A DNA stretch of 33,311 nucleotides from Candidatus Uhrbacteria bacterium CG10_big_fil_rev_8_21_14_0_10_48_16. Lineage in GTDB: Bacteria > Patescibacteriota > Patescibacteriia > UBA9934 > GWF2-40-263. The stretch lies in the NCBI GenBank assembly GCA_002793515.1, contig PFEU01000017.1, positions 13,182 through 46,492 on the forward strand, given 5' to 3'. The position numbers and the translations under genes were made by a program. A model generated the notes under the pieces. That model was given only the letters and a program-made list of their open reading frames with translations. It made no database searches and was not told the DNA's origin. Shown piece by piece: positions 556 to 15,831 of this stretch; position 1 is the first letter of the stretch; each line of letters starts with the position of its first letter.

Positions 556-1518
556 TCAACGCAAGTTTGATGCCCGAAACACCTCTGCATCAAGAAGGTG
601 GGTGATGTCTTCATGGTTCTCGTTGATCGCATGAAGCATGACAGGCTCATCCACCCCGATCGCATAGGCAACGGAAATAAGGACCTCTTTGGCAAGACCT
701 TCTTGCACGATCTTCAACGCAACCTCGCGCGCTTTATGGGTGGCGGAACGATCAACTTTAGAATTATCTTTTCCATGTGTTGAACCTCCTCCTCCTGGAA
801 GCACGCCCCCGTACCCGTCCACCGCAAGCTTACGCCCGGTCAGTCCAGAATCCGCATTGAATCCTCCGGTACTCCAAGCTCCAGCTGGATTAATTAAATA
901 TCGTGGCTCCGTAACCACCCCCATCCCCTCCTTAAAAAGGAGGGGGGAAATTTGTTTTAGAAGTTCCTCTCGCACCTCTTCGAGACTAACATTCTCATCA
1001 TGTTGCGCACTCACCACAATCACCTCGGGTTGCCCATCTCGAATAGTAACCTGACTTTTTCCATCGCTCTTAAGCCATGGAAGTTCTCCTGACTCACGCA
1101 AACGTTCAAGCCCATCGGTGAGAGCTCGTGAAAGCTCAACCCCAAGTGGAAGACCACTCTGCGTTTCTGAAGTCGCGTACCCGTACATGATTCCTTGATC
1201 CCCCGCTCCGCCCTCACTGACCGCTCCTCCAATCTGAGAAGACTGTTCGATGAGGTGAAGACGAATCTCAACAGGGTCATAGGCAACAGCATCGAGAACT
1301 TCTCGGGCAAGTCCAGCATAGTCAACCTGCGCATGCGTTGTCACTTCGCCTCCAATCGTGAGCACCCCCTTACATCCGAAAACCTCAACGGCCACTCGGG
1401 CAGAAGGATCTTGCGCAGTGATCTCTTGTAAAATTCGATCAGCAATTTGATCACAAACGCGATCAGGATGACCTTTCGTCACAGACTCAACCGTATAAAT
1501 CGATGGAAGTAATGGCAT
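556..1518 (-). CDS. metK: S-adenosylmethionine synthetase (short at the C-terminus)
   Basis: VTKGHPDRVCDQIAD, GAGDQGIMYGYATSET, GLTGRKLAVDGYGG, GKDNSKVDRSA motifs. Confidence 0.9.
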   Translation of the reverse strand: MPLLPSIYTVESVTKGHPDRVCDQIADRILQEITAQDPSARVAVEVFGCKGVLTIGGEVTTHAQVDYAGLAREVLDAVAYDPVEIRLHLIEQSSQIGGAVSEGGAGDQGIMYGYATSETQSGLPLGVELSRALTDGLERLRESGELPWLKSDGKSQVTIRDGQPEVIVVSAQHDENVSLEEVREELLKQISPLLFKEGMGVVTEPRYLINPAGAWSTGGFNADSGLTGRKLAVDGYGGVLPGGGGSTHGKDNSKVDRSATHKAREVALKIVQEGLAKEVLISVAYAIGVDEPVMLHAINENHEDITHLLDAEVFRASNLR

Positions 1519-1548
1519 AAAAAAATGCTCTTTCCAAAATAGAAAGAG
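1519..1548 (-). terminator. Riboswitch expression-platform intrinsic terminator directly abutting metK ATG
   Basis: CTCTTTC(1548-1542) loop GAAAGAG(1534-1528), T7 at 1525-1519, ATG at 1518. Confidence 0.75.
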
Positions 1549-1720
1549 TGGTTATGAATTATCTTTCCCAATTGGGCGAGAGGTCGCACCTTATCATTTC
1601 TGACAGGTTGCCCAGCCTAAAGGCCGGGTCCGGCTACGCCGGACGGGTAGATTTCGTCGTCACCAAGGTTTTGGCGACAGACATCGGGCTCGTTCCCTTC
1701 CTACACTCTTGATAGTCTTC
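1519..1720 (-). promoter_or_regulatory. SAM-I (S-box)-like riboswitch upstream of metK: aptamer about 1556-1720 plus expression platform/terminator 1519-1548
   Basis: Minus strand contains ATCAAGAG...AGGGAACGAGCCCGATG...GGGCAACC...AAGGTGC...GGGAAAGATAA in canonical S-box order, and then CTCTTTC-N7-GAAAGAG-CA-TTTTTTT-ATG; GAAAGA of the aptamer 3' strand can pair with TCTTTC of the terminator as antiterminator. Confidence 0.75.
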
Positions 1721-1780: not shown

Positions 1781-2983
1781 ATGAAATCACTCTTACAAAG
1801 ACCTTGGTTTACCACAACAATAGGCATTCTCGCGGGAATTCTAATCCTTTCTGGATCCTTCTATTACCTCTTCCGCGAACACCTCCCTCAATCAACCTTC
1901 ACCTTTTTAGGGGAACGCGCCTTCGGAGATCTCTCACTCGAACAAGCCGTAACCACGGAAGACGCAGTAGGCGCTGGAGGAGGATCAGCCTCAAGCCTGA
2001 GGATGTACCCTATCGTGGCAGATGAATTTCCCTATCCTCAGGAAGTCATTGCCTACGAATATCTCTACCAAGGAGAACTTCCCGATCTCACAACTGTCGA
2101 TCCAACCGTCTACCGACGCGTGAATACGTTTGCTCTGCCAACTGTTCTTTCTGACAGTTTCTCTCAACTCACCATTGGGATCCTGTCCCTCTCCACATTC
2201 AATAATCTCGGAATTCAAACCATCAGCCTCAATGAATCAGATGAAACGGGTTACACGGTTGCTTTAGACATTCCTAATAATACCCTTTCTATTTCGCGCC
2301 AAAACGAGTACTGGCAAACCTTTGATACGACCCGCACGCTTTCTGCGTCTGACATTCCATCCAACGAGGCTCTTATTGAGAAAGCCAACCAATTCCTCGT
2401 CGATCATCAGATCAACGCCTCTTCATTTGGAACTCCAACCGTTGACCGAGCATTCATCGACCCTGAGTCATGGGTCCCAGATGCTATGAGCGTGATATAC
2501 CCAGCCCTCGTAGAAGACACAGAAGTCTGGTCTCTTTGGGGACAGCCATCCGGTCTTTCTGTTTCTGTCAGTCTTCGAACAGGAGAGGTTGATAATCTTT
2601 GGGCTCCAGGTGCCTACTCGCTCGAAGCATCCGCCTACGAACTCACCACCAACTCGGAAGAAGTTCTTGCTGTCGCACAACGTGGAGGGCTTTGGGAATA
2701 CATGCCAGAAAATGCCGATGTGACCTATACCTTCCTTCTTGGAGAACCTGAACTCGTTCTTGCCGAGCATTACCAATATGATGCCGAAGAGGGTTCCACG
2801 ATCCTTTATGTCCCTGCCTTCCAATTTCCTGTGGTGGAAGGTGATGCAGATGCGCCGTATCAAAGGCCATGGATCATTGTTCCGCTCGTAAAAGATATTC
2901 TTGATGAGGCTGGACGATCTTTTCCTACAGAGCCGTTCCTCCTAGAAGAAAAGGAAATTCTGCCCACCGAAGTCGTGAAATAA
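1781..2983 (+). CDS. Hypothetical membrane-anchored extracytoplasmic protein
   Basis: 400-aa ORF, one N-terminal TM helix, promoter and terminator flanking. Confidence 0.8.
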   Translation: MKSLLQRPWFTTTIGILAGILILSGSFYYLFREHLPQSTFTFLGERAFGDLSLEQAVTTEDAVGAGGGSASSLRMYPIVADEFPYPQEVIAYEYLYQGELPDLTTVDPTVYRRVNTFALPTVLSDSFSQLTIGILSLSTFNNLGIQTISLNESDETGYTVALDIPNNTLSISRQNEYWQTFDTTRTLSASDIPSNEALIEKANQFLVDHQINASSFGTPTVDRAFIDPESWVPDAMSVIYPALVEDTEVWSLWGQPSGLSVSVSLRTGEVDNLWAPGAYSLEASAYELTTNSEEVLAVAQRGGLWEYMPENADVTYTFLLGEPELVLAEHYQYDAEEGSTILYVPAFQFPVVEGDADAPYQRPWIIVPLVKDILDEAGRSFPTEPFLLEEKEILPTEVVK

Positions 2984-15206: not shown

Positions 15207-15498
15207 AATGAAGCTAGCATAAAAGCTAGAAGTCGAAAGAAAACAGTGTTTCCTACCGGCTTCTAGCCTCGCGATCGAACAGGTTTATCTAAACCCACAT
15301 CTTCGATTGGCTGAGGAATAAACTATTGTGATAAACGAATTCTCCGTATGCAATCTTTGAAGCTCAGGAAGGTTTTCTCCGGGATTCACGCGTAGACATG
15401 AGATCTCTCTTCCTTGTTCTGGGATCACTGGATGGGACAGAGAACGGACATGAGCCAAGTGAACTTTGCTCGTATCCGTTCTCTGTCCCGAACTTTTT
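15207..15498 (-). promoter_or_regulatory. Long structured rpsJ-rplC intercistronic region (candidate leader/attenuation or processing element)
   Basis: About 290 nt non-coding gap in an otherwise tight operon; perfect 15-bp stem 15434-15448/15475-15489 with extended inner stem; 8-bp GCTAGAAG/CTTCTAGC stem near rplC. Confidence 0.55.
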
Positions 15499-15831
15499 TT
15501 AGGTCTTGATTTCGACATCTACCCCCGCAGGAAGATTTAGACTCATCAGTGCGTCAATGGTCTTCTCTGTTGGGTTTGTGATATCGATCAAACGCTTGTG
15601 TACACGCATTTCATACTGGTCACGAGCGTCCTTGTGGACAAACGTAGAACTATTGACTGTGTACTTACGTTTTTCAGTCGGAAGAGGTACTGGACCAATA
15701 ACTTGTGCTCCAGAACGTTCAGCCGTCTTTATGATCGTCTCCGTAGCTTGATCAATAATCTTATGATCATATGCTCGGATTTTGATGCGAATGCGGATCT
15801 TTTCTTCAGTTTTTTTCTTGTCGTCAGACAC
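15499..15831 (-). CDS. rpsJ: 30S ribosomal protein S10 (GTG start)
   Basis: [36 protein letters not shown]. Confidence 0.95.

Follow-up and report, generated by a model that had tools for sequence, protein, structure and literature searches.

A predicted SAM-I riboswitch before metK in Candidatus Uhrbacteria, elaborated by a kink-turn hairpin and a dispersed double-hairpin repeat

SAM-I riboswitches (S-box, RF00162) combine helices P1–P4 with an L2–J3/4 pseudoknot, a kink-turn in P2 and a set of conserved ligand-contacting residues (listed in PMC3764141), and they can control metK through a terminator/antiterminator platform. Some rare variants of SAM-I are responsive to spermidine, including one that precedes a metK gene; these share the four-stem architecture and the OFF logic, but J1/2 and the P3 internal loop are changed (PMC10853860). 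A kink-turn carrying a third helix, as in the TPP riboswitch, is called a k-junction (PMC4005666, PMC4316175), the third helix interrupting the non-bulged strand (PMC4316175). Riboswitches can accommodate extra stem-loops at particular positions where the core is left undisturbed (PMC2258182). Among repeats, bacterial REPs are short, palindromic and dispersed (PMC3733652), and mitochondrial double-hairpin elements and other repetitive hairpin-forming elements have been described, with hairpin repeats within mitochondrial rRNAs reported to remain in the transcript (PMC2800124). The metK leader described here shares with SAM-I the four helices, the pseudoknot, the contact residues, the target gene and the platform, and it has the kink-turn G-A residues, which a helix interrupts. 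It differs from a typical member in this helix in the kink-turn bulge, in a second insertion, a double hairpin of 33 nt separating P2 from P3, and in a score below the Rfam cut-off.

The window, i.e. the whole 33,311-nt stretch of DNA analysed, belongs to the 0.99-Mb genome of Candidatus Uhrbacteria, an uncultured, ultra-small bacterium. Among metK records bearing a group name the closest are from Candidatus Uhrbacteria MAGs, in agreement with the CPR-like host that had been proposed from the letters alone. A minus-strand leader of about 260 nt separates metK from a divergent ORF (1781-2983, plus strand). The proposed target gene was also borne out: the ORF at 556-1518 matches TIGR01034 with E = 7.8e-86 (288 bits, under the curated cut-off of 309), and its orthologues within the genus are 71-88% identical. 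Since metK begins straight after the terminator, the RNA precedes a SAM-synthesis gene, as expected of a SAM-I member. The features are collected in Table 1.

Table 1. Features of the metK leader, in window coordinates
Feature	Position	Strand	Basis or remark
SAM-I aptamer, 163 nt including 62 nt of two insertions	1718-1556	-	RF00162, 18.8 bits; held-out model R1, 37.5 bits
P1 5' strand, partner 1563-1556, 6/8 pairs	1711-1718	-	pair check
P2a 5' strand GTAG, partner CTAC 1650-1647	1701-1704	-	forms in predicted aptamer fold
Kink-turn non-bulged strand GAA, A at 2n (L003: TGA)	1698-1700	-	pair check
P2b hairpin GGG-AACGAG-CCC	1686-1697	-	loop CGAG (1692-1689) is the pseudoknot side
Insert 1, 29-nt hairpin in the bulged strand of the P2 kink-turn	1653-1681	-	ends +/- a few nt
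Insert 2, 33-nt copy of double-hairpin repeat at the P2/P3 joint	1611-1643	-	family copies; empty sites
P3, GCAACC ... GGTGC, with SAM-contacting internal loop	1586-1611	-	RF00162 alignment and relatives
J3/4 pseudoknot strand CTCG	1577-1580	-	pair check
P4 hairpin CCC-AATT-GGG	1567-1576	-	pair check
Switching strand GAAAGA, P4/P1 3' side or antiterminator	1562-1567	-	folds and 23-leader comparison
Intrinsic terminator hairpin; 3' arm with SD-like GGAAAGAG (1535-1528)	1528-1548	-	pattern scan
T7 tract running into the metK ATG (1518)	1519-1525	-	sequence
metK, methionine adenosyltransferase, 320 aa, regulated gene	556-1518	-	TIGR01034

The S-box blocks on which the original prediction was based are all present on the minus strand and in order: ATCAAGAG, AGGGA...GCCCGATG, GGGCAACC, AAGGTGC and GGGAAAGATAA. 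The Rfam SAM-clan search that it had proposed gave RF00162 as the best match of the clan, one weaker same-clan overlap being dropped, but the score over 1718-1556 (18.8 bits, E 0.08-0.23) is under the gathering score of 44.4 bits, and no match reached that score. This cut-off is a detection threshold and not a structural feature, and two insertions that interrupt the aptamer account for the low score. The Rfam score alone would leave the SAM-I call doubtful, and it is the homologues that decide. Within the genus, metK leaders give RF00162 scores of 74.6 (L004), 59.7 (L033) and 48.3 bits (L006) at the corresponding position, and four relatives that have neither insert show clear SAM-I matches in their metK leaders. 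A covariance model (R1) of 30 other Patescibacteria SAM-I aptamers, with the window and its sister left out, has two-sided changes at 23 of 33 pairs and a pseudoknot that is 98.3% paired across these relatives. It recovered the window aptamer with E = 2.2e-8 (58 kb searched) and the sister aptamer from genome G004 (L032 and L003 denote one locus) with 46.8 bits and E = 4.5e-11; a covariance search with filters off split the window locus and was excluded from scoring. The leader fold beats 200 of 200 shuffles (z = -4.4). A chance match is ruled out by the homologous leaders and the held-out model, and an assembly artefact by the presence of both inserts in two different genomes. By homology, the metK leader is a SAM-I riboswitch, as first proposed, and SAM binding is predicted. 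Of the 43 family genomes, 20 have SAM-I matches, as do 115 of the 384 genomes of the class; in the window's genome the class-wide search yielded a single match, namely the metK leader. Our search of the open-access literature found no report of SAM riboswitches in Uhrbacteria, which is weak evidence of absence. SAM-I aptamers occur widely upstream of metK in Patescibacteria, several with kink-turn branches, and standard cut-offs miss real riboswitches there.

With the inserts set aside, P2a (4/4), P2b (3/3), P3 (6/6), P4 (3/3) and the pseudoknot (4/4) are fully paired, and P1 forms six of its eight pairs. The pseudoknot pairs, CGAG with CTCG, are all Watson-Crick and covary across the 30 relatives. 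The residues of the P2 kink-turn G-A pairs are there with a helix in between; position 2n is A in the window and G in L003, and a SAM-I RNA engineered with the same G2nA change has had its structure solved (PMC4316175). The SAM-contact residues of J1/2 and the P3 internal loop are kept as AAGAG, GCAACC and GGTGC. Variants that respond to spermidine, including the one before a metK gene, make a ligand-switched SAM-I conceivable, but those types alter both J1/2 and the P3 internal loop (PMC10853860), and with SAM-type residues in both places a change of ligand appears very improbable here.

We next consider whether so heavily interrupted an aptamer is maintained. Between the window and L003, metK identity is 88% for the protein and 79% for the DNA and drops to 49% at fourfold sites (78/159), whereas the two leaders are about 95% identical. 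The 61 aligned sites of the inserts differ by three substitutions, of which two fall in the insert 1 loop and one turns a G-U pair of insert 2 into G-C, and there is one indel. So few changes have a probability of 5e-15 at the synonymous rate and of 1e-5 at the spacer rate (27% divergence, read off the upstream spacer). The inserts are known from two sequences only, and their structure is predicted and not derived from covariation. Given this conservation relative to fourfold sites, together with the kept core, the elaborated aptamer looks to be maintained by selection, to judge from these two leaders; the high identity could also stem from a transfer between these species that involved just the leader. 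The same data bear on the possibility that the insertions broke the aptamer, leaving a leader blind to SAM and a metK level fixed by the terminator. Such a loss would fit the low Rfam score and the position of the repeat, which adjoins the ligand pocket and makes the four-way junction more complex. However, both species keep the core pairs, the pseudoknot and the contact residues intact, and an aptamer without function should have decayed over that distance, yet the leader is far better conserved than the synonymous sites of metK. We therefore regard a broken aptamer as improbable.

The original prediction had mentioned one insertion. An insertion is indeed present, but comparison of the window aptamer with L128, L112 and L033 showed two, which differ in site and in origin: one is a dispersed repeat and the other lies in the kink-turn, and neither fact had been recognised. 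Both are common only to the window species and its sister species G004. Insert 1, missing in L128, L112 and L033, is predicted to form a stem of 3 + 8 bp, and its differences in L003 are confined to the loop apart from one indel. Branching from the bulged strand, it would turn the P2 kink-turn into a three-way junction. In this the RNA resembles a k-junction, and the A at 2n, hence an A-A pair at 2b-2n, is also found in one known k-junction. In contrast to the k-junction definition, in which the third helix interrupts the non-bulged strand (PMC4316175), the window helix is on the bulged strand, which places the aptamer outside that definition; the branched kink-turn may nevertheless bend in much the same way. 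Sequences read by eye revealed kink-turn hairpins in other Patescibacteria SAM-I aptamers. L207, L214/L062 and L204 have theirs on the bulged strand, whereas in L205, L206, L217 and others the hairpin is on the non-bulged one. Extra P2 kink-turn hairpins also occur among L212, L218 and L219, and several such aptamers are under the Rfam cut-off.

As for the origin of insert 1, a second dispersed repeat was dropped as an explanation because the host-family DNA search found no copies elsewhere. A duplicated P3 was also considered: the R1 alignment laid part of P3 onto insert 1, and GCCAAAACC..GGTG resembles P3. This is unlikely, as Rfam and L128 both put P3 downstream. The L207 hairpin is identical to insert 1 at 20 of 28 positions, and none of 5000 shuffles was as good, the pair having been chosen post hoc. 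Because of this resemblance, insert 1 may be an old branch shared with L207.

Insert 2 has the form TCCGGCGTAGCCGGA-CCCGGCCTTTAGGCTGGG, two flush hairpins beside the SAM pocket, within one or two nucleotides of SAM-contacting residues. In the host-family DNA search this stretch recurred at many unrelated places, and the rest of the aptamer did not. Several of these places carry TCCGGCNNNGCCGGA with TCCGGCCTTTAGGCCGGA immediately after it, or a version with paired changes, and the first hairpin changes on both arms among copies (TCCGGC/GCCGGA, TCCGCC/GGCGGA, TCTGGC/GCCAGA). Of the 43 family genomes, 13 contain the second hairpin, one of them at as many as 12 places, against a total of two matches for a reversed control pattern; the junction of the two hairpins is present in eight of 384 class genomes, seven of them in the host family. 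Insert 2 is, from its copies, a member of a dispersed repeat nearly confined to the host family. Some copies are intergenic and others lie within long open frames, potentially encoding SGLKAGSGxA; in L159, L270, L171 and other family copies, the in-frame repeat would add an SGLKAGSGxAG-like stretch to a protein. Such in-frame copies somewhat resemble palindromic elements in Rickettsia genes. In form and placement (short, palindromic, dispersed, intergenic and genic) the repeat is like bacterial REPs (PMC3733652) and, again in form and placement, like the mitochondrial and other hairpin-forming elements (PMC2800124); it is unlike them in its host, a Patescibacterium, and in its site inside a riboswitch aptamer.

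The empty site is visible at the metK leader locus only, as CTACCCG|CAGCC in L128 and CACCCG|CAACC in L033, indicating that target bases were neither visibly lost nor duplicated when the repeat came in. It would have done so between P2 and P3 in the common ancestor of the window species and G004, and then have been kept. With a G at its end, the repeat can be placed immediately before or immediately after the P3-opening G (1611, or 1644 in an alternative register), which by alignment is G43 in T. tengcongensis numbering. The ribose zipper that uses G43 and C44 favours the position just before G43. In a related SAM-I variant, breaking the first P3 pair abolished switching (PMC10853860), which, with the repeat so close to SAM-contacting residues, speaks against a working aptamer. 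An automatic census of Patescibacteria, with alignments fitted to the model, found P2-P3 insertions of at least 6 nt in none of 61 other aptamers, and we found no report in the open-access literature of a SAM-I RNA with an insertion at this site, which is again weak evidence of absence.

Downstream of the aptamer, the elements of the expression platform read in the original prediction were recovered. A 7-bp hairpin (CTCTTTC-TATTTTG-GAAAGAG) is followed by CATTTTTTT and then by the ATG at 1518; it is the only terminator-like site in 400 nt (pattern scan; one found, 0.3 expected in shuffles), and the run of the terminator into the start codon is common to five close relatives (L003, L004, L005, L006 and L033). 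GAAAGA (1567-1562) is complementary to TCTTTC (1547-1542) of the terminator 5' arm, and the two alternative leader folds are close in predicted energy. Across 23 CPR leaders, the complementarity between the P4/P1 3' strand and the downstream hairpin arm has a mean z of -2.6 against shuffles (-1.5 for the window leader alone), and strand and arm change together, on both sides, between these leaders. Together with the homologues, this covariation supports the proposed antiterminator/terminator layout.

The only SD-like sequence, as had been noted, lies within the terminator stem, in its 3' arm, and the host 16S rRNA retains the anti-SD core (GGATCACCTCCTTTT), so GGAAAGAG may serve to gate translation too. 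A mainly translational switch, in which the hairpin hides GGAAAGAG and termination is minor, would draw on the same two features, on the spacing of 9 nt to the ATG and on the GGGAGGAG that L005 has at the SD-like position. However, an intrinsic terminator requires a T tract close behind its stem, and the T7 tract is in that place, with T tracts also conserved among close relatives. A predominantly translational mode seems unlikely, although translational control and termination are compatible.

We thus favour termination. When SAM is plentiful, it would bind the four-way-junction aptamer and close P1, the terminator at 1548-1528 would form, and RNA polymerase would halt immediately upstream of the metK ATG. 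Under SAM scarcity, GAAAGA would instead pair with TCTTTC of the terminator 5' arm and metK would be transcribed. That the leader is such an elaborated SAM-I OFF switch, in which SAM turns metK off through P1 and the terminator, we consider likely. The analysis shows homology, kept core pairs and contact nucleotides, a covarying platform, that insert 2 derives from the repeat and that both inserts are conserved, while we infer SAM binding, the switching itself and any effects of the inserts on folding or affinity. A bolder reading is that the repeat was built into the ligand-binding domain, became a needed part and, with the kink-turn branch, alters SAM-I folding or affinity in a way unlike other SAM-I RNAs. 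The strong conservation of both inserts after the species split points to this reading, which we hold as tentative and less likely than not. If the RNA binds SAM, nature would have tested here to what extent the SAM-I core tolerates rebuilding, and the leader would clearly exemplify the recruitment of a small repeat by a regulatory RNA.

Finally, several genomes of the genus have more than one metK match (three in G000), which suggests that some members carry a second, divergent metK; a single SAM-I aptamer was found in G000 despite its three matches. Elsewhere in the window, at 15434-15489, there is an inverted repeat of 27 nt (GGGACAGAGAACGGACATGAGCCAAGT) whose arms are 89% complementary and 2 nt apart; it lies shortly upstream of the end of the ORF at 15499-15831.
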